Below, piece after piece: positions 10,412-62,566 of a DNA stretch of 64,000 nt (the first letter of the stretch is position 1; each line of letters starts with the position of its first letter). This DNA is from Gemmatimonas aurantiaca T-27 (GTDB taxonomy: Bacteria; Gemmatimonadota; Gemmatimonadetes; Gemmatimonadales; Gemmatimonadaceae): NCBI RefSeq assembly GCF_000010305.1, contig NC_012489.1, positions 4,285,646 through 4,349,645 on the forward strand, written 5' to 3'. The notes below the pieces were generated by a model. The model saw nothing but the letters and a program-made list of their open reading frames with translations, did no database searches and was not told the DNA's origin. The position numbers and the translations under genes were made by a program.

Positions 10412-11593
10412 GTGGATGCGAACCTCACTCAACACGCCCCTCCGGTCGCGTCGCCGGACTCAGCAGCCGGCCTGACGTCGGACGAGCGCGATCGGTATCG
10501 GCGGCAGCTCACCCTGCCGTCATTTGGCCTCGAGGGGCAGGAGCGTCTCAAAACCTCCCGCGTGCTCATTGTGGGCGCCGGTGGGCTCGGATCACCGGCG
10601 GCGTTGTACCTGGCTGCAGCGGGCGTGGGCACCATCGGACTGGTTGACCACGACGTGGTCGACATCACCAACCTGCACCGCCAGTTGCTGCACGGCACCA
10701 GCGATGTGGGACGCGACAAGCTGGCCTCGGCCCGTGATCGCCTGCGCGACATCAATCCGCTGGTGCAGGTGGTCGCACACGATAGCTGGCTCACGTCGGC
10801 CAATGCGATGGACATCATCGCGAACTACGACCTGGTCATCGACGGCGCCGACAACTTTGCCACCCGCTATCTCGTCAACGACGCCTGCGTGCTGCTGGGG
10901 AGGCCCAATGTGCACGGCTCGGTGTTTCGTTTCGACGGACAGGCGTCGGTGTTTGGCATGCCCGATGGCCCCTGTTATCGCTGCCTGTACCCGGAGCCAC
11001 CGCCGCCGGAGATGGTGCCCAATTGTGCGGAAGGGGGCGTACTCGGTGTGCTGCCTGGTCTCGTGGGGACCATTCAGGCCACCGAAGCCATCAAGGTGCT
11101 GCTCGGCATCGGCACGTCACTCGCCGGTCGCCTGCTCATGATCGACGCGATGCGCATGCAGTTCCGCACGGTCATGCTGTCGCGAGACCCTGAGTGCCCG
11201 GCCTGCGGCACGCGCACCATCACCGCACTCATCGACTACGACCAGTTCTGCGGCACCCCAGGCTTGCATGCGCTGGCCGACGCGCGCGCGGAAGAGATCT
11301 CCGTGGCCACCTTGCGGGGATGGATCGACCGGAACGAGCGCATCACCGTGATCGATGTGCGTGAGCCAACGGAAACCGCTGCCGGTGTGATTGGCGGTGC
11401 ACGCCTGGTGCCCATGGCGGAACTCCAAGCCGCGATGGACACCCTGCCGCGCGATCACACCCTGGTGATGGTGTGCAAGAGTGGTGTGCGCAGTGCCCGC
11501 GCCACACGTCAGCTCAAGGCAGCGGGATTCACCAAGGTGTGCTCGCTGGCCGGCGGTATGGTGCGCTGGGAGGAGCACCATACCGCCGGATAG
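10412..11593 (+). CDS. moeB: Molybdopterin-synthase adenylyltransferase/ThiF-type E1 with C-terminal rhodanese domain
   Basis: 393 residues from a GTG at 10412. The N-terminal domain (about residues 30-275) is an E1-like adenylyltransferase: GAGGLGSPAALYLAAAGVG nucleotide loop, DHDVVDITNLHRQ with the conserved Arg, and a CPAC zinc half-motif near residue 268. The C-terminal domain (about 290-393) is a rhodanese with active-site CKSGVRS. This MoeB-rhodanese (MoeZ-like) architecture activates the C-terminal glycine of MoaD/ThiS and supplies the sulfur. It is divergent from the BNR and MoaD/ThiS genes and convergent with the IorBA molybdoenzyme genes. The gene symbol is given for the family; ThiF or MoeZ naming is equally defensible. 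Confidence 0.85.
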   Translation: MDANLTQHAPPVASPDSAAGLTSDERDRYRRQLTLPSFGLEGQERLKTSRVLIVGAGGLGSPAALYLAAAGVGTIGLVDHDVVDITNLHRQLLHGTSDVGRDKLASARDRLRDINPLVQVVAHDSWLTSANAMDIIANYDLVIDGADNFATRYLVNDACVLLGRPNVHGSVFRFDGQASVFGMPDGPCYRCLYPEPPPPEMVPNCAEGGVLGVLPGLVGTIQATEAIKVLLGIGTSLAGRLLMIDAMRMQFRTVMLSRDPECPACGTRTITALIDYDQFCGTPGLHALADARAEEISVATLRGWIDRNERITVIDVREPTETAAGVIGGARLVPMAELQAAMDTLPRDHTLVMVCKSGVRSARATRQLKAAGFTKVCSLAGGMVRWEEHHTAG

Positions 11594-53537: not shown

Positions 53538-53840
53538 GTGATCGGAGAGGCCTACGCGACCACCGTCATCAAGTGTTTGGATGACGGGTCGCTGACGGCG
53601 ACTGGTAGGGTGGCGCTGTCACTAGCCGACTTCGCAGGCAAGCTCGTTGGCCTGGCCAAGTCACTCTCCAGCAGAATGCCCATGCCGTATACCAGCTCGA
53701 CCTATGCTGGCCTTGCCATCTCGCTCATCGTTGTTGGTGGAGCGCTGCTGGAACGTCAGGCTGCACTTGGTGGCCCGATTCTCTTGTGTGGCATTGTCTC
53801 GGCGTTGATCTCGATCCGGCTCCGTCGGAGGAGACCGTGA
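53538..53840 (+). CDS. Small membrane protein, first gene of the peptide cluster
   Basis: 100 residues from a GTG at 53538; an ATG at 53676 would give a 54-residue protein that covers the better-looking part. The C-terminal half has two hydrophobic segments (STYAGLAISLIVVGGALLER, LGGPILLCGIVSALISIRLR) and a basic end (RRRRP), a small two-span membrane protein. No family recognised. Its stop overlaps the GTG start of the thioredoxin-like gene by four bases, so the two are translationally coupled. It could be an immunity or export accessory protein; that is inference from context only. Confidence 0.55.
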   Translation: MIGEAYATTVIKCLDDGSLTATGRVALSLADFAGKLVGLAKSLSSRMPMPYTSSTYAGLAISLIVVGGALLERQAALGGPILLCGIVSALISIRLRRRRP

Positions 53841-54346
53841 GCACCTCGCTCAAGGCCTTCGCCTACCTGGTCTTTGCAACACTCGTACTGGGCATCGGCG
53901 GGATCGTCTACAGTATCCGCAGTCGACCATCGGTGACTTCGCTGGTGGGCACACCTGTGCCTCGCCTCGATGTCGCGACACGAGAAACACCCCTTCGATT
54001 GGATACGCTCACCGGATCTCCACTGGTGGTCGTCATCTACTCTCCCCGGTGCGATCACTGTCATCGGCAATTGGATGCCTTTGCCAGATCCACCATGCCC
54101 GTCGGCGCGCGGCTCCTTTTAGTCAGCATCGCCGATCTGCCACTCGACAGCCTCGCCGATATCTGGCCCGCCTTGCGCGCATCCAGCGCCGTCACCTGGG
54201 CTCAGGCCTCGTGGCCCGCTGTGAAGTCGCAGTTCCACATCCGAGCCGTTCCCACGGTGCTGGTATACGACCGCAATCGCCGCCTGGCGAAGGGATTTGT
54301 CGGAGAAGTGCGGGTCGACTCGGTTTACGCCCTTGCTACGAAGTGA
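53837..54346 (+). CDS. Membrane-anchored thioredoxin-like (redoxin/TlpA-type) protein
   Basis: 169 residues from a GTG at 53837, preceded by CGGAGGAG. An N-terminal anchor (LVFATLVLGIGGIVYSIRSR) is followed by an extracytoplasmic thioredoxin-like domain: LVVVIYSPRCDHCHRQLDAF with active-site Cys72 and Cys75 (CDHC), and the cis-proline loop RAVPTVLVYDRNRRLAKGFV. This is a TlpA/ResA-like thiol-disulfide oxidoreductase. Sitting immediately before two cysteine-containing secreted peptides and their exporter, it is a good candidate for forming or resolving their disulfides. Alternative roles in cytochrome maturation are unsupported: no ccm genes are nearby. Confidence 0.85.
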   Translation: MSTSLKAFAYLVFATLVLGIGGIVYSIRSRPSVTSLVGTPVPRLDVATRETPLRLDTLTGSPLVVVIYSPRCDHCHRQLDAFARSTMPVGARLLLVSIADLPLDSLADIWPALRASSAVTWAQASWPAVKSQFHIRAVPTVLVYDRNRRLAKGFVGEVRVDSVYALATK

Positions 54347-54443
54347 ATGCGGGATTCGCGCGTGCCGGATGCTGGGCATCGACCCAGGGCGAACAACTTC
54401 AGGCCAACGCATGCCATGCCTGCCATTCGAGATGGAGGGAGCG

Positions 54444-54620
54444 ATGCAGACGATGTCAGTGGCGGAACAGTCCCGATTGGTCGGTGGCGATTTCGATTTT
54501 GGGCTCTTCGTTCGGGGAGCCGCCTGTGGTCTTGGTATGGCGGCAGGCGTAGCGACGGCAGTCGGCACCGTCGCGGCGATCGCCGCGTGTCTCACGCTGC
54601 TTCCGGGCGAGCTCACCTGA
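54444..54620 (+). CDS. Double-glycine-leader peptide A (bacteriocin-like)
   Basis: 58 residues from the ATG at 54444, with GGAGGG seven bases upstream; the longer frame upstream (from 54297) reads as non-coding. The leader is MQTMSVAEQSRLVGG, ending in a Gly-Gly cleavage site with hydrophobic Leu/Val before it, the signature cut by C39 exporters. The 43-residue core begins DFDFGLFVRGAACGLGMAAG, is rich in Ala/Gly/Val, and holds two cysteines (core positions 13 and 34) that could pair. Hydrophobic, glycine-rich cores of this type are membrane-active class II bacteriocin-like. No similar peptide family is recognised; activity is inference. Confidence 0.75.
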   Translation: MQTMSVAEQSRLVGGDFDFGLFVRGAACGLGMAAGVATAVGTVAAIAACLTLLPGELT

Positions 54621-54675
54621 TAGCAAACGCTCTCAGGGACTGCGTGCAAACATCCAACTCAATCGAGGATTTGTC

Positions 54676-54855
54676 ATGAAAACTCTCACGATGCAGCAAC
54701 AGCACGAGATCGTTGGTGGCGACTGGGGATTTCTGTGTGGTGCAGCGATCGGCGCCGGCATCGGTGCGGTGATGATCTCCGGCGGTGGCGCCCTTCCAGC
54801 CGCGATGATCGCCGCTGAATGGGCGTGTGCCTTGGACATCGTGGTCTTCAAGTAG
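54676..54855 (+). CDS. Double-glycine-leader peptide B (bacteriocin-like)
   Basis: 59 residues from the ATG at 54676, with a GAGGA-type site nine bases upstream. The leader is MKTLTMQQQHEIVGG, ending in Gly-Gly and similar in shape to peptide A (I/L-V-G-G). The 44-residue core DWGFLCGAAIGAGIGAVMIS and onward is glycine/alanine-rich with a GAxxGAGxGA pattern, and has two cysteines (core positions 6 and 36). The two peptides share leader type, core start (D-[FW]) and a Cys-Gly/Ala-rich-Cys layout, so they look like partners of a two-peptide bacteriocin. Spacing to peptide A is 55 bases. Confidence 0.75.
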   Translation: MKTLTMQQQHEIVGGDWGFLCGAAIGAGIGAVMISGGGALPAAMIAAEWACALDIVVFK

Positions 54856-54930
54856 ACCTGGCAGGCCTGGGTCGTGGCGATCACCAGCGTTCGCGACCCA
54901 GGCCATGCACCAGCTCCACATGGCCATCCT

Positions 54931-57054
54931 ATGACCACTCTCGCATCGACACTCTCGTCCGTTCTGACGAAGGCATCCCATCATCCCGTCGTCGGGCAGT
55001 TGGATGACGCGGACTGCGGGCCGGCCGCTCTGCTGACCGTGATTCGCGCCTTTGGTGGGAAGGCGACGCTGCCTGATATTCGAAGCCAGTGTCTACGCGA
55101 TCCACGAGGCGCCTCCCTTGCCGATCTGGTCTCTTGCGCCAATCACATGGGCTTCAGCGCACGTGCCGCGTCCGGCAGTCTCGACCAACTACAGGCGTGC
55201 ACATTGCCGTGCATCGCCCATGTCGTGAATGAACGTGGACGCCCGCACTATGTGGTCGTGCAATCCATCGGCCGCACAGTACGGATTGGGGATCCGGCGC
55301 TTGGGCCGAGAAAACTCTCCCGAGAGCACTTTGAAGAAATGTGGAAGAGTCGGGCCGTACTGCTCTTCGAAGACCGTGCGCCCGTTCCTCCATTGACCTT
55401 GCATGTTCCGCAAATCCAATGGACGCTGAATCTGCTGATGGAGTCCAAGGCCCTGCTCGCGCAGGCCACATTCCTCATCATGCTTGGTACAGCGGGGTCG
55501 ATTCTCTCCTCGCTGGTCGCCGCGCAACTGGTCACAAGATCCGTACCCGCGGGGCAGTCCAGTTCGATCTATGCGCTCGCCGGCGCGCTGCTGGGCATCG
55601 GGATGGCGCGTGCCCTCATCGGGTTTGCCAGACATCTATTCGTATCACGGGCCTCCGAACGCCTGGTGCGGCGCCTTCACACCGTGCTGCTGGAAGCCCT
55701 GCTCAACGTGCCGGAGCGGCTGTTTCATTCCGGACTATTGGGCAATCACGGCGCCCGGTTGGTCGACGTGCAGATTGCGCAAATACAACTCCTGCGCTCG
55801 CTGTCCACCATCGGTTCGGACATCCTGCTGCTGACCGTGACGTGCGTGGTCATTGCGTTCATCAGTGCTGCACTGCTCCCCTTTCTCCTCATCGCCGTTG
55901 GCATCCTCGCGATCGGGCTTCGTCGGCACTTTCGCCGACTTCGGGAGTCGAGTCTTCGTGTGGCATCCGCCTACTCCGATCTGGAGGAGCGCTTCAGGGA
56001 GGTGCTCTCCGGTAGTCGGGACCTTCGATTTGCGAACGCCTGTTCGTTCGGAATGAATATGTACGAGCAGCGCGTGAGCACATTCGCCGCCCTGCAGTAC
56101 CGAGTTGCCTCCTCTCTGGGATCCCTGACGCTCTCATCGGAGTTGATCGGCGCCATGGTACTCTCCGGAATAGTGGGCTACGCCGCGATGCATGTGCTGG
56201 GTGGCCAACTGCGACGCGACGAGCTGTTCATGCTCTACATCGTGGGCGGATTGGCCGTACCCAGCATCGTGCGGGTGCTGGACTCGGTGAATTCCCTGCA
56301 GACGGCCTTGGTCGCCGCGACCCGCATCGAAGAGCTGCAGACGAGCAGTGATCGCTCTTCTCGATCACTATCGAGCACTCCGGTCTCGATTGCCCTCGAG
56401 ACCGCGTCGCTGCGTCGGGCTGCCCAAATGCCCGTGTGGGAGAATGTCAATTTTGTGGTGCGACGCGGAGAGCTGGTCACACTCGAAGGGCCCAGTGGAT
56501 GCGGAAAGTCGTCACTGGTCGCTGTCATTGCCGGGCATTTGCGGCTCACCACGGGAAACATCCACGTGGAAGGAAGCGATGGTCAGCGGTTGGCCGACGA
56601 TGAACTGGAGCATGTGGTCGCGCTGATCCCTGCCACCACCATCATCTTCTCCCGCACGGTGCTCGAAAATATCGCGCTCGGACGGCCGATCCCTGCATTG
56701 ACCATTCAAGCGCTGGCCGTGGAAGCAGGGCTGTGGAGTCTGCTGGAACGCTTGCCGAACGGGCTGCACACCGTGGTTGGACACGGTGGACATCCACTCT
56801 CTGCGGGAGAGCAACAGGCGATCGGAGTGCTTCGAGTGCTGGTGGCCAAGCCACCGTTCATCGCGATCGATGAAGGACTCAATGCGTTGGATGAACCACG
56901 CGCGGCACAGGTCCTGTCGGCCGTGGTGGGTAGCTCATGGCGCCCCGGTGTGATTCTGATTTCACACAGCGCCAAACTCCGGGCGCTCGCCCACACTCAC
57001 TATTCACTGCGGGTTCGGGAGAATCGGAATGGCCATGATGCGGTCACTTCGTAG
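54931..57054 (+). CDS. C39 peptidase-containing bacteriocin-type ABC exporter
   Basis: 707 residues from the ATG at 54931. Residues 20-145 are a C39 peptidase: DADCGPAAL with nucleophile Cys29, PHYVVV with His106 and GDPALG with Asp121, spaced as in PCAT exporters. Six membrane spans follow (about 160-420). The ATPase domain has Walker A GPSGCGKSS at 520-528, signature LSAGEQQ at 623-629 and Walker B FIAIDEGLNALD with catalytic Glu648. The protein would cut Gly-Gly leaders in the cytoplasm and export the cores of peptides A and B. It is the central gene of the cluster; the next gene overlaps its 3' end by 26 bases. Confidence 0.93.
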   Translation: MTTLASTLSSVLTKASHHPVVGQLDDADCGPAALLTVIRAFGGKATLPDIRSQCLRDPRGASLADLVSCANHMGFSARAASGSLDQLQACTLPCIAHVVNERGRPHYVVVQSIGRTVRIGDPALGPRKLSREHFEEMWKSRAVLLFEDRAPVPPLTLHVPQIQWTLNLLMESKALLAQATFLIMLGTAGSILSSLVAAQLVTRSVPAGQSSSIYALAGALLGIGMARALIGFARHLFVSRASERLVRRLHTVLLEALLNVPERLFHSGLLGNHGARLVDVQIAQIQLLRSLSTIGSDILLLTVTCVVIAFISAALLPFLLIAVGILAIGLRRHFRRLRESSLRVASAYSDLEERFREVLSGSRDLRFANACSFGMNMYEQRVSTFAALQYRVASSLGSLTLSSELIGAMVLSGIVGYAAMHVLGGQLRRDELFMLYIVGGLAVPSIVRVLDSVNSLQTALVAATRIEELQTSSDRSSRSLSSTPVSIALETASLRRAAQMPVWENVNFVVRRGELVTLEGPSGCGKSSLVAVIAGHLRLTTGNIHVEGSDGQRLADDELEHVVALIPATTIIFSRTVLENIALGRPIPALTIQALAVEAGLWSLLERLPNGLHTVVGHGGHPLSAGEQQAIGVLRVLVAKPPFIAIDEGLNALDEPRAAQVLSAVVGSSWRPGVILISHSAKLRALAHTHYSLRVRENRNGHDAVTS

Positions 57055-57700
57055 GGATCTGGCGTCCCAGGCAGACCCATTTGCCACATGGCAGGTCTTT
57101 GGCCTCGCGGCGGTGCTGTCCGTTCTGTTGACGTACTACACCGCCAATGTGGTCGTGACACGTGAGTACTTCGAACAATTGCTGTCGGCCAGACTGGATC
57201 AGACCCAGATCGAGTCGCGGTATGCATTGTGGAAGGAATGGCAGACGGTTGGTATCTACTTTGCTCCCGCGATCCTGGCGTTCAAGGCACTGTTCACCGC
57301 CTTGCTCATCCAGTTGGCGCTGATCATCCTGGGATCAGAAGTGGGCTTCCGTCTCGTATTCCGCGCCGTGTTGTACGCCGCCCCGGTGATGCTTGCCCAG
57401 TCCCTTTCACGTCAGTTGTGGAGTGCCGCGCATGTCGCGGAGGATGCGCTGACCTCGGTGGCCCAATATGTCCCCCTGTCATCGTCATTTCTCGTTCGCC
57501 CGGATCCCAACGGAAGTGCTGCGCTCCTGCAGGTCTTGAACGCCCTGAGCGTGGGCGAGGCCATCTGGATGGCGGTGGTGACGTTTTACCTCGTGCAGCA
57601 AGGGCCACTTGGCTTGCGACGCGCCGCTCTCGCCGTTTTTGCGGTTTGGTTGCTGATTGAGGGAGTTGCCGCCTCCGCAGTAGCAATTCTCATTCCTTAG
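57029..57700 (+). CDS. Multi-span membrane protein (Yip1-like), cluster accessory
   Basis: 223 residues (starts at 57029, 57035 or 57038 are possible; the first overlaps the exporter gene by 26 bases). Five hydrophobic spans: TWQVFGLAAVLSVLLTYYTA, GIYFAPAILAFKALFTALLI, LVFRAVLYAAPVMLAQ, EAIWMAVVTFYLVQQG, AALAVFAVWLLIEGVAASAV. The layout is similar to Yip1/YIF1-type or other small permease-like proteins. No specific family is certain. Between the peptide exporter and a second ABC transporter it is placed like an immunity or transporter accessory protein. Confidence 0.65.
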   Translation: MAMMRSLRRDLASQADPFATWQVFGLAAVLSVLLTYYTANVVVTREYFEQLLSARLDQTQIESRYALWKEWQTVGIYFAPAILAFKALFTALLIQLALIILGSEVGFRLVFRAVLYAAPVMLAQSLSRQLWSAAHVAEDALTSVAQYVPLSSSFLVRPDPNGSAALLQVLNALSVGEAIWMAVVTFYLVQQGPLGLRRAALAVFAVWLLIEGVAASAVAILIP

Positions 57701-57706
57701 GAGACG

Positions 57707-58411
57707 ATGCGGATGTTGAGGGTGCACCACGTAACCAAGCGCTATGGGCAGACCGTCGCGGTGGACGAGCTGAGCATGACGGTCAACCCCGGGGAGATCG
57801 TGGGTCTGCTCGGACGCAATGGCGCAGGCAAGACGTCGCTCTTTCAGTGCATTGCCGGGATATCACGACTGGACCAGGGCAGCATCGAGGTCTGCGGACA
57901 CAGCATGCAGTCTTCCTCGGAACACGCCAAGATGAAACTGGCCTATCTGCCGGATGTGCCCGAGTTCTTCGATGGGTTGACCGTCGTGCAACACGCAATG
58001 CTGTGGGCCATGATCTATGGTACCAGCAAGGCGGAGGCGGTTGCGGTGGTGAAAGACTGCGGGCTGGACGATCACGGTCATCTGGAACCGGCGGTCCTGT
58101 CGCGCGGCGAGCAACAGTTGTTCCTGTTGCGATTGGCCCTGGCCCGAAAGCCCAGCGTATTGGTGTTGGATGAACCGCTGACCGGGTTGGATCCCATTGT
58201 CATTCAGGAGGTCAAGGCGCTGGTGGTCGACGCGGCGCGAGCAGGAGCCTCAGTGTTACTCAGTTCGCACAATTTGCCATTGGTGGCGGAGCTCTGTACC
58301 CGGGTCTGCTTTCTGGTCGAAGGGCGCCTCATGACGGAGTCGGATGTCCAGACCCATTCCGTCGAAGAGCTCGAGAGCCGGTTTCTGGACCTACACGCCA
58401 TCCGGAGCTAG
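57707..58411 (+). CDS. ABC transporter ATP-binding protein of the peptide cluster
   Basis: 234 residues, ATG at 57707 following AGGAG. Walker A GRNGAGKTS, Q-loop YLPDVPEFF (Asp replaces the usual Gln), signature LSRGEQQL, Walker B VLVLDEPLTGLD and H-loop SSHNLPLV are visible. Six bases separate it from the exporter accessory gene and six from the permease gene, so one operon is clear. A separate ATPase plus permease downstream of a bacteriocin exporter is the arrangement of LanFEG/BcrAB-like self-immunity transporters that remove the peptide from the producer's membrane. That role is inferred from position. Confidence 0.9.
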   Translation: MRMLRVHHVTKRYGQTVAVDELSMTVNPGEIVGLLGRNGAGKTSLFQCIAGISRLDQGSIEVCGHSMQSSSEHAKMKLAYLPDVPEFFDGLTVVQHAMLWAMIYGTSKAEAVAVVKDCGLDDHGHLEPAVLSRGEQQLFLLRLALARKPSVLVLDEPLTGLDPIVIQEVKALVVDAARAGASVLLSSHNLPLVAELCTRVCFLVEGRLMTESDVQTHSVEELESRFLDLHAIRS

Positions 58412-58417
58412 GGAGCC

Positions 58418-60058
58418 ATGCGCTCGGGTTGGTTCCTGGGGATGGCGCATCTGCAGTCACAATGGCGGGCGCTGACCAAAGACCCTCTGCAACTGGCAGG
58501 CGTAGTGCTGCTGCTCGGCATCGTTGCGGCGCGAAGCTCGCAGGTCCTGAACACGACCGCGAGCAGCAAGTCCACCGCACCACCGGTGCTGTCGTTGGTC
58601 GCCCAGCTTTTTGTCGTGGTGATGCTGTTGCGATCGGCGTTTGGGCGCTCTTCATGGGTGGAAGCCCGTGCGGGAGAGCGGCTGTGGCTGGCCAGCGCGC
58701 CGGTATCCCTCGGGACGCTCCTGCTGTATCGAACCGTTGCGACTGCCCCCATGACAGTGCTGTCGGCGGTGCTGCTGACCCTGACCCTCGGGGCCACCAG
58801 TGGGCCGGAGTTCGCCGTGCACCTCTGGGGCGCGTTCTCGGTGCTGATGCTCTTTCGGAGTGTCGAGCTTGTGGAACTCCTCGAGCTCCGGGCGAAGCAC
58901 TCCTCCAATTCCGGGCAGCAACAGGTTGCTCGGAGCATCGTGGTCCTGGTGCGTACGATCTCCGTGTGCGGAGCGGTGGGATTGCTCGCCGAGATCGGTA
59001 GTCGCCTGGTACCGCGTTGGCCCGTGGGAGGAGTGGCGAGCGTCGTTGAGTATGCGACATGGCTCGTCACACCGATATCCGTTGTGGCGCGCGCGATTTA
59101 CGACGGCACAGGGCCCAGTTTGGTGGGCAGCGTGGCCGCGGTATCGGTCAGTGCCATCATCATCGCGCTCACGCTCCAGGATTCCTCTCCCTGGAGATTT
59201 CGAGAGGATCGCGGTGAGCCCCTCATGCGCCGTGCTCATCGTGATGGGTACGCAACACAGCAAGCAGCGAATGCCGTGTATCGTCTCAGCAGCATGTTGG
59301 GTTTGCATGGGCGCTCGCTCGTCTGGAAAAATGCGGTTGGGTTCAGGCACACCCAGTCGATACAGCCTCTCCTGCTTGCTGCGATAGGCGGCCCAGCGCT
59401 GTTGGCGCTCTGTGCGCTCCCGGTGTTGGCGCATTTGTCGTCATTTGTGCTCGGACTGGTGGCGTCCTGGGGGATGTTGCTGCTGCTGGGTGGTCCGCTC
59501 TTCATCCGATCGGACATTCGTTTGTCGCTGCCGAAGGTGCATCTGCTCAAAGGTCTCCCCATCGACATGTACCATCAGGTGATCGGCGAGAGTGTCTGCA
59601 CGGTCCTCGCACTGACGCTGGTGCAAGGTCTCCTCATTGGCCTGACATACACGGTCTGGCGGGTGCTCGAACCAGCAACACCGATGCCCTCATCGGTTGT
59701 CATTGGCGGAATACCCATCGTGCTGCTCGCGTTCAATACCGCGAATGTCGGTATCCACGGCGTGTTCGGAATCTTCATGCCATCGCTCACCAAGGTCGGC
59801 CCCTGGCGCGCGGAGAGCCGCGCCGAAGCGAGCAAGGTGTACATCACGATGATCGTTGCATGCCTAGTCGGAGGCGTGCTGATACTCATCGGATCGAGCA
59901 GTCTGCTGCTTCCAATGTTGCGGAACGGGCAGATCGCGCCGGTGTGGCGGGAACTGACGGCAATGACCTACTTCATTCTGTCATTGGGAGCGGTGGGGTT
60001 GGCGGCGATGAAACTGACCGCATGGCAGATTGACCGACGGGACCTGAGGGGTTGGTAG
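58418..60058 (+). CDS. ABC transporter permease-like membrane protein of the peptide cluster
   Basis: 546 residues with roughly twelve hydrophobic segments (LQLAGVVLLLGIVAARSSQV, GTLLLYRTVATAPMTVLSAV, LSSFVLGLVASWGMLLLLGG, YITMIVACLVGGVLILIGSS, LTAMTYFILSLGAVGLAAMK). A long loop in the middle (RFREDRGEPLMRRAHRDGYA) is cytoplasmic and basic. It is not a standard MacB or ABC-2 sequence I can name, but as partner to the preceding ATPase it is the probable transmembrane component of the second transporter. Last gene of the cluster; 180 bases without a recognisable feature follow before the Big2 protein gene. Confidence 0.7.
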   Translation: MRSGWFLGMAHLQSQWRALTKDPLQLAGVVLLLGIVAARSSQVLNTTASSKSTAPPVLSLVAQLFVVVMLLRSAFGRSSWVEARAGERLWLASAPVSLGTLLLYRTVATAPMTVLSAVLLTLTLGATSGPEFAVHLWGAFSVLMLFRSVELVELLELRAKHSSNSGQQQVARSIVVLVRTISVCGAVGLLAEIGSRLVPRWPVGGVASVVEYATWLVTPISVVARAIYDGTGPSLVGSVAAVSVSAIIIALTLQDSSPWRFREDRGEPLMRRAHRDGYATQQAANAVYRLSSMLGLHGRSLVWKNAVGFRHTQSIQPLLLAAIGGPALLALCALPVLAHLSSFVLGLVASWGMLLLLGGPLFIRSDIRLSLPKVHLLKGLPIDMYHQVIGESVCTVLALTLVQGLLIGLTYTVWRVLEPATPMPSSVVIGGIPIVLLAFNTANVGIHGVFGIFMPSLTKVGPWRAESRAEASKVYITMIVACLVGGVLILIGSSSLLLPMLRNGQIAPVWRELTAMTYFILSLGAVGLAAMKLTAWQIDRRDLRGW

Positions 60059-60238: not shown

Positions 60239-62566
60239 ATGACATACGAACGAGTACCAGCGCTGGCGAATGCATCTGCAAGCACAAGGCTGGCCTTGAC
60301 GCTGTGTTTCGCGTTCCTGTTTGGATGCGAAAGCTCCAAATCGCCACCGACCGGATCAGACAATCTCGATACGCCGATCGCGAATTCGATCGTGATATCC
60401 CCAGCAACGATCGCGTTCACCGCTGTTGGTTCGAGTCAACAGTTGACGGCAACCGTCAGGGATCAAAAGGGAGCTGAACTATCGGCCCAGGTGACTTGGA
60501 TGATTCAGAATAGTGCGATCGCCACAATCACTTCGACCGGCGTGGTCGCGTCGGTAGGCACGGGGAGTACAACGGCTACAGCAACCGTTGGAACGATCAC
60601 GACTTCCGTTGCTGTGTCTGTCCAGCAGACGATCGCATTACTGCAATCAACCGTACCCACTGCAACTTTGGCATCGATTGGGGAATCGACGCAAGCCGCG
60701 CTGATCGCAAGTGATGCGAACGGGAACAGGATTGCCAATCCCGCAGTGACGTGGAGCAGCACCAATATCGCCGTAGCTACTGTTTCGGCGACGGGCCTCA
60801 TCACCGCAGTTGCAAACGGCAGCTCGGAAATACGGGCAACAGCAGAAGGAAAGACAGCAACCATTGCCATCGCCGTGAATCAACGTGCGAATGTTCTTCA
60901 ACTTACTCCCCCCAGAGACACTCTCTCTGCCGTCGGGGAGACTTCGCAATTGACCGCGACCATACGGGACGCGCGCGGGACCGCGATGAACGGGACGGTC
61001 ACGTGGACATCGGGGAGCAACACGGTCGCCACGGTATCCAGTATGGGTGTAGTAACGGCGGTAGGGCGGGGCTCCACGACGGTGACAGCGCAGCACGGAG
61101 CATTGTCTGCCATGACTCAAGTCATTGTTGATGATTTCGGGGACCTCGGCATTGGCTATGTCCACCGCTCTCCGGAAATTGACTTCGTCCGGGGAAGTGC
61201 AAACCCGACACGGGAAGGGTGGCCGGCTGCCGGTCAGACCGTAACCTGGGAAGCAAAGATCAAGAGTACTTCCCGATTCAACAGGACTGCCGTGCCCTAC
61301 CGGTGGACTGTTGATGGCATTCAGGTTTCAGCTGGCACCATAGATATGCCAGCAGGTGCTGTCATCACGATTCCTCTGCTTCGGAACTGGACGTTCTCGC
61401 GCACCAAGATCGGGTTCGAACTGGACCCTGACAATTCGTTCGGAGAAACTGAAGAACGAAACAACACGATTGAGGTGTTCTCGGATGCGCTGGCGATCGG
61501 CTTCTATGTTGAAAGGTCCGTATATGACTATTTCGGGGAGAATCAGCGCAAATTGGGGGTTGGATCGAACTCCTGGGAGGATTGGGCCCAGCGTCATGTT
61601 CGGTTTTGGAATACCATGTTCGAGAATGCCCGATACCCACTTAGCCCTGTGGGAGTGCTCGATCGTGTTCGGATCGACAAGATCACCGTAGTGCCGGACG
61701 GAGCGCTCCCGTTGGTTCCCGGCGGGGTCGCAGGGAACCTTCCCAACGGCAATGATCGCACCGTTGACCTGCAGTGGGGGTTCCCGGCGTCATTGCTGCA
61801 GGGAAACATGTATGGCAACCATGTCGGAATTCCTGGCGCCAACAACCAGCCCGACAATCCGTTCTATTTTGAAAGTTCTCTACTGCACGAGCTTGGACAT
61901 GCGCGCTACCTCGTCGATGTATACGGCTTCAACGTAAAGGATGGGGCTTGGACTCCAGCTGGAATCATCGACAAGGGATCAAATATTGCGATCATGGAAG
62001 CAGGGCAGTTCGTTGCGGGATCTCCCTACATGCGAATCGCAAACTGGGAGCATGTGTACTACACTCCGCTTTTCAATGGCCTAATGGGGGGCGACTACTA
62101 TACCGTCGGTGAATACAACGCGGCAGCATTGAACCTGATTGCGGGTCGGCGTGCCGTTCTTGGAAATGCCAATGCTCCTGGAAACATTGGAGCATTTCTG
62201 AATGACCTTCCTGCCCAGAATAGATTGAAGATTACGGATGCGGCGGGCGTTCCTATTGCCAGGGCATCAGTGCGCATCTATCAATCCACTCCGAAAGCGA
62301 ATGAGTGGTACGGAAAATACTTCGACAACACACCAGATCTGCAATTGAGTACGGACGCGCAGGGGCAGGTGTTGCTTGGCAGAAACCCTTTTGGAGGATC
62401 TGGCATTGTCCACACCTACGGTCACAGCAACGGAGTGGTGATCATCCGTGTGGAAGGGCAGGGTCGAGTTGGATACACATTTCTCGAATCAGCTATGTTC
62501 AATTTGGAGTACTGGAGAGGCCATACTGCGCTCGGTGAATACATCCTCGCAGTTGTGCTCAGGTAA
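60239..62566 (+). CDS. Big2-repeat lipoprotein with zinc-metallopeptidase-like domain
   Basis: 775 residues from the ATG at 60239. A lipoprotein signal ends at LFGC (Cys30). Three Big2 (bacterial Ig-like group 2) domains follow at about 45-130, 132-215 and 217-297, recognisable by VTWxSxNxxVATVSxxGxxTAV-type strands. A CARDB-like beta-sandwich (about 325-425, NSFGETEERNNTIEVF) precedes the catalytic region, where FYFESSLLHELGHARYLVDV contains His550, Glu551, His554 and a possible third ligand Asp560 (HExxHxxxxxD). The metzincin Gly is replaced. The base composition is visibly less GC-rich than in the preceding genes. Likely a surface-anchored protease; substrate unknown. Confidence 0.8.
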   Translation: MTYERVPALANASASTRLALTLCFAFLFGCESSKSPPTGSDNLDTPIANSIVISPATIAFTAVGSSQQLTATVRDQKGAELSAQVTWMIQNSAIATITSTGVVASVGTGSTTATATVGTITTSVAVSVQQTIALLQSTVPTATLASIGESTQAALIASDANGNRIANPAVTWSSTNIAVATVSATGLITAVANGSSEIRATAEGKTATIAIAVNQRANVLQLTPPRDTLSAVGETSQLTATIRDARGTAMNGTVTWTSGSNTVATVSSMGVVTAVGRGSTTVTAQHGALSAMTQVIVDDFGDLGIGYVHRSPEIDFVRGSANPTREGWPAAGQTVTWEAKIKSTSRFNRTAVPYRWTVDGIQVSAGTIDMPAGAVITIPLLRNWTFSRTKIGFELDPDNSFGETEERNNTIEVFSDALAIGFYVERSVYDYFGENQRKLGVGSNSWEDWAQRHVRFWNTMFENARYPLSPVGVLDRVRIDKITVVPDGALPLVPGGVAGNLPNGNDRTVDLQWGFPASLLQGNMYGNHVGIPGANNQPDNPFYFESSLLHELGHARYLVDVYGFNVKDGAWTPAGIIDKGSNIAIMEAGQFVAGSPYMRIANWEHVYYTPLFNGLMGGDYYTVGEYNAAALNLIAGRRAVLGNANAPGNIGAFLNDLPAQNRLKITDAAGVPIARASVRIYQSTPKANEWYGKYFDNTPDLQLSTDAQGQVLLGRNPFGGSGIVHTYGHSNGVVIIRVEGQGRVGYTFLESAMFNLEYWRGHTALGEYILAVVLR

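Follow-up and report, generated by a model that had tools for sequence, protein, structure and literature searches.

A probable bacteroidetocin-type cassette with paired peptides and an additional ABC transporter in Gemmatimonas aurantiaca T-27

What do two very short genes upstream of a peptidase-bearing ATP-binding cassette (ABC) exporter in Gemmatimonas aurantiaca T-27 produce, and do they belong with their neighbours to a known kind of toxin system? The genes are part of a locus at positions 53538-60058 of a 64,000-nucleotide stretch of contig NC_012489.1 (hereafter the window), in which every gene is on the + strand; the host genome is a single contig of 4,636,964 bases. Our comparison indicates that the locus is probably a bacteroidetocin-type (class IIf) cassette, in a two-peptide form with an extra ABC transporter, because its gene content and the gene order of a Bacteroidota relative, L130, match the published cassette (Coyne 2019, PMC6671954). 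The original prediction, made from the sequence alone, had suggested that the locus may be undescribed. A two-peptide locus with double-glycine (GG) leaders in Gemmatimonadota is real, but its kind appears to be known, namely the bacteroidetocin cassette. In the literature, no bacteriocin report for Gemmatimonas was found.

The peptides, the exporter and the accessory proteins

Peptide A is encoded at 54444-54620 (leader MQTMSVAEQSRLVGG, core DFDFGLFVRGAACGLGMAAGVATAVGTVAAIAACLTLLPGELT) and peptide B at 54676-54855 (leader MKTLTMQQQHEIVGG, core DWGFLCGAAIGAGIGAVMISGGGALPAAMIAAEWACALDIVVFK). As first described, both precursors have a 15-residue leader ending in VGG and a core with two cysteines, at positions 13 and 34 of the 43-residue core A and at positions 6 and 36 of the 44-residue core B; all other frames of the locus were likewise recovered at the coordinates given by the original prediction. 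The cores have a net charge of -2, and are very hydrophobic and rich in small residues. The two frames are more than chance, because they ranked 1 and 2 (1.3e-8 and 2.6e-4) when the 655 open reading frames (ORFs) of the window were scanned with a profile of relatives' peptides from which the window was excluded, because for both of them their own reading frame scores best in codon usage, and because they are the sole significant matches in a genome-wide scan (3e-14 and 1e-9; both were part of the profile used there). Neither Bacteriocin_IIc of Pfam (PF10439) nor TIGR03949 (lactobin A/cerein 7B family) matched the window pair at E<=1, while five of the 17 peptides of the family weakly match the former (best 5e-4) and three other members weakly match the latter. 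In addition, two peptides of the family gave weak matches to the lichenicidin A2 model (E 0.03), which would fit further modified ribosomal peptides, for example with lanthipeptide-like thioethers. This is very improbable for the window, since no LanM/LanBC, radical S-adenosylmethionine, YcaO or other modifying enzyme was recognised at 52.6-60.1 kb, and the window cores are poor in Ser/Thr.

The exporter (54931-57054, with GTG 54874 as an alternative start to ATG 54931) contains the Pfam domains Peptidase_C39 (PF03412, 2e-26), ABC_membrane (PF00664) and ABC_tran (PF00005). Its catalytic triad is intact as predicted, being C29/H106/D121 when counted from the ATG and C48/H125/D140 from the GTG; it is invariant across the aligned exporters, and the Walker residues are also kept. 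C39 exporters are known to cleave after GG. A scan of the genome contigs with the exporter as query gave generic ABC matches only, and a window-excluded profile of the module exporters recovered the window protein at 4e-105. In the exporter tree, the window exporter and eight exporters of the same module form a clade with 100/100 support, outside which fall the 12 further C39 exporters taken from the phylum. Two HlyD-associated GG-peptide loci (L037 and L040) and L038 were considered as the same system and rejected, as no membrane protein or redoxin of the kinds described below was seen in them and their exporters group apart in the tree. The genome has just one further C39 exporter, outside the window (L047, 6700-14000; 4.581-4.589 Mb of the genome), where it adjoins a 1163-aa ORF in the LanM position and an ORF with a RAWKDxxFRxSL...LPANPAG leader; judged by eye, L047 resembles a lanthipeptide cluster of type II.

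Two accessory proteins accompany the peptides and the exporter. The first is a membrane-anchored thioredoxin-like protein (redoxin) encoded upstream of the peptides at 53837-54346 (Pfam Thioredoxin_2, E 9e-4), and its CxxC motif, already pointed out in the original prediction, reads CDHC. It was recovered by window-excluded redoxin profiles from both Gemmatimonadota (1e-22) and Bacteroidota (4e-16), and the pattern C-x-[H/Y/F]-C is recurrent among the redoxins of relatives; a PDB sequence search with the redoxin gave no match. A His ahead of the second Cys in such a motif, as in DsbA, favours oxidation. The redoxin is likely a thiol oxidase or isomerase acting on the peptides, and the earlier suggestion of a thiol-handling protein in the locus is supported. 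The second is a protein with five hydrophobic spans (57029-57700), predicted to be transmembrane (TM) and called here the 5-TM protein, which was found at 1e-29 by a window-excluded profile and at 7e-27 by a profile of Bacteroidota sequences only. The AlphaFold model of this protein alone is poor (pLDDT 57) and was not used for a fold search.

Relatives of the module and the class assignment

Within Gemmatimonadota, the exporter search (200 genomes) gave one clear relative, L035, which holds within 6 kb a redoxin, two two-Cys peptides, an ABC ATPase, the exporter and a 5-TM homologue in shuffled order. The 5-TM profile search (395 genomes) found the protein in 14 genomes, and in nine of them, the window counted, it is directly 3' of a related C39 exporter. 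Two to three short peptides with GG-type leaders are present in all eight of these loci that are not truncated upstream by the end of their contig; exactly two are present in seven of the eight, and three in L075. Among the eight loci other than the window, the peptides accompany the exporter in 7/7 uncut ones. Hence co-conservation, which the original prediction proposed as a check, is seen for peptides, exporter and 5-TM protein, and no case of an exporter kept without its peptides was met in these loci. The leaders of the family follow the pattern MxxLTxxEMxxIxG[G/E/S/A/R] over 15 residues, and the cores have two Cys, except for three or four in L072, with GFWxGxxCG being frequent. In L072 the four- and three-Cys peptides (10693-11092) are nearer in Cys number to true bacteroidetocins. 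The redoxin was found in 4/8 complete Gemmatimonadota loci. None of the other sampled Gemmatimonas genomes has the 5-TM protein. In three relatives unrelated genes come after the conserved pair of upstream genes, and therefore the module occupies a variable place. In L074 and L076, both from a single genus, a large ORF that by eye resembles a polyketide synthase comes after the 5-TM gene; L076 retains only part of the 5-TM gene.

Outside Gemmatimonadota, the 5-TM profile matched 14 of 345 genomes from the phylum to which a Bacteroidales genome belongs, and 17 of 393 from that genome's order. It was not found on the plasmids searched, nor in 349 genomes from the phylum of a Legionella metagenome-assembled genome, an empty result that proves little. 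Most of the fetched Bacteroidota loci have a 5-TM protein, a redoxin and a C39 exporter grouped together, and the trio recurs in more than 25 loci; about half of the loci also have an ABC ATPase, and one to several Cys peptides with 15-aa leaders are close by. Some of them have a MauE/DoxX-like gene, named by eye. In two loci, L095 (6512-8005) and L102 (7421-8263), glycosyltransferase-like ORFs, also judged by eye, are between redoxin and exporter, and these are possibly glycosylated variants. Two Bacteroidales loci, L121 and L129, have three 5-TM genes each, several differing GG-leader peptides and one shared exporter; because the 5-TM(-redoxin)-peptide units are repeated there, each 5-TM protein may be dedicated to one peptide. 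The order in L130 is 5-TM gene, four-Cys peptide, redoxin and exporter, which is exactly the published bacteroidetocin order, and profiles made only from Gemmatimonadota recover its 5-TM protein (3e-8), redoxin (3e-8) and exporter (6e-93).

The bacteroidetocin cassette, proposed as class IIf, comprises a TM protein, a GG-leader Cys peptide, a thiol oxidoreductase and a C39 exporter, and E. coli given just these four genes makes the toxin; the genes for the TM protein and the oxidoreductase are both required for the toxin but are not protective, and the producers show no self-immunity (PMC6671954). The authentic proteins are EH213_01842-01845 of B. thetaiotaomicron CL15T12C11. The peptides kill Bacteroidales, with BamA as the target; for bacteroidetocin A, resistance mapping was the approach used (PMC8546649). 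The Gemmatimonas locus is alike in its 15-aa VGG leaders (15-16-aa GG leaders there), in its two-Cys cores of 43 and 44 aa (there, Cys cores of about 42-48 aa, within a class range of about 35-50 aa with at least two Cys), and in its C39 exporter, 5-TM protein and redoxin, which are homologous by profile via L130, a cassette that fits the published description. It differs in its host, a member of the Gemmatimonadota instead of the Bacteroidetes, in having two peptides instead of one, in the negative charge and strong hydrophobicity of its cores, and in the extra ABC ATPase and permease. Compared by description, its cores have two Cys whereas bacteroidetocins A and B have four, but weakly similar two-Cys peptides were also admitted to the class by its authors (PMC6671954). 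The YknWXYZ system for protection against the SDP toxin (PMC4887032) is alike in that the 5-TM protein matches the YknW profile weakly (E 0.007, far below the cut-off), but for bacteroidetocins the 5-TM protein has been demonstrated to give no protection (PMC6671954). Class IIb two-peptide bacteriocins share with the locus the paired GG-leader peptides and the cores rich in small residues, with two different peptides encoded together and kept as a pair; the 15-aa leaders, the redoxin and the 5-TM protein set the locus apart. Pediocin-type operons offer another parallel, as they combine a C39 exporter with a thiol protein of their own, the thioredoxin-like PedC, for a disulfide bacteriocin; the locus differs from them in lacking a YGNGV motif, in its accessory genes and in its Gram-negative host.

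Paired, independent or non-toxic peptides

The cores of the relatives were compared by z scores against shuffled cores. Those of L069, L070 and L071 split into two lineages, with one member of each per locus and z of 10-15 inside lineage 1, 6-13 inside lineage 2 and at most 4 across; the L035 cores fit the two lineages more weakly. Core B goes with lineage 2 (z 3.8-5.1 against L069, L070 and L071), and it also scores 4.6 against L075_2. Mainly because the pairing is steady across loci, we prefer the reading that the two cores would function as a two-component product. In its full form this proposal is tentative: a two-component class IIf bacteriocin of co-inherited, disulfide-closed peptides, hydrophobic and active only together on the envelope of competing Gemmatimonadota, with a swappable ABC transporter as immunity. 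Alternatively, each peptide of the same cassette could be a one-peptide bacteriocin with a target of its own, which is a real possibility, considering that bacteroidetocins act singly (PMC6671954), that one to several peptides are present per Bacteroidota locus and that L075 has three. However, the constant number of two in 7/8 complete Gemmatimonadota loci, one per lineage where the lineages are distinguishable, speaks against independence.

Several points weigh against a paired bacteroidetocin-type product. Core A is divergent and has a weak tie to lineage 1 (best z 3.1); the window cores are negatively charged (-2), whereas bacteroidetocins A and B are cationic; the cut site of several relatives reads GE, GS, GA or GR in place of GG; the redoxin was not found in L069, L071, L074 and L075; and the window exporter is on a long branch (2.8). 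The long branch, together with the lack of a sigma-70-like promoter match at the locus and the fragmentary copies in L076 and L077, could also mean that the window copy is decaying, that is, present but non-producing. We consider this unlikely, as all frames are intact, the catalytic and Walker residues are kept and codon usage is normal. Similarly improbable is that the peptides are secreted quorum-type signals or developmental factors and that the ABC pair has a different cargo. Signalling peptides too are processed by C39 exporters, and killing by the window peptides is itself a prediction; however, the long hydrophobic two-Cys cores, which are rich in small residues and divergent, the accessory genes homologous to those of a toxin-making cassette, and the patchy distribution speak against a signal.

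The second ABC transporter, the proposed mechanism and its meaning

The second transporter consists of an ABC ATPase (57707-58411; Pfam ABC_tran 7e-27) and an ABC-2-like permease with about 10 spans (58418-60058), the candidate immunity exporter. It is an add-on to the bacteroidetocin-type cassette. The ATPase is 44% identical to one in L077, beside a 5-TM gene fragment, and the permease shows 29% identity over 182 aa to the permease there. In L077 (5421-8098) the 5-TM fragment, ABC ATPase and permease are together, and exporter, redoxin and peptides were not found; it is a possible immunity-only remnant. The permease as a conserved part of the module was rejected, since it is not homologous to its counterparts in the other tested loci. 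Considering its position and its variable permease, the second transporter plausibly provides immunity for the producer, which remains a guess because the permease is non-homologous between the tested loci.

As to the layout, the multi-span protein, ATPase and permease genes were predicted to follow within 6-7 bases of each other, which applies to the ATPase and the permease (each after a 6-nt gap), but the 5-TM gene starts 26 nt inside the exporter end. The GTGA overlap was confirmed, with the GTG start of the redoxin gene (53837) on the stop of a small ORF (53538-53840, 100 aa), which has two predicted TM helices near its C-terminus, no family match and a weakly positive codon-usage score, so that it is uncertain whether it is a real gene. 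No convincing terminator was found at the locus. A 775-aa protein encoded downstream (60239-62566) carries several copies of the Big_2 domain (Pfam 1e-23); its G+C of 0.55 is lower than the 0.62 of the window.

From the exporter family and the intact triad, we assume that the C39 domain would cut the leaders after GG and that the ABC part would move the cores across the inner membrane. The CDHC redoxin may form or sort the single disulfide possible in each core, where the two cysteines are far apart, giving a closed hydrophobic hairpin, and the 5-TM protein may assist maturation or export, since toxin activity in Bacteroides depends on the related protein there. The two cores would then work together against the cell envelope of related bacteria. 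The second transporter might pump them away from the producer, which is the weakest step of this scheme.

If the two-component reading is true, this would be the first bacteriocin system for Gemmatimonadota, a soil phylum. Bacteroidetocins have so far been described from Bacteroidetes only, without known immunity. The machinery of 5-TM protein, redoxin and exporter is shared by Gemmatimonadota and many lineages of Bacteroidota, and its Gemmatimonadota form regularly has paired peptides and an extra ABC transporter; together this would widen the class and offers a searchable genetic signature. The locus is a candidate weapon with a candidate immunity in an abundant but poorly known soil phylum, and the host appears to be a cultured strain, so the locus should be amenable to testing.

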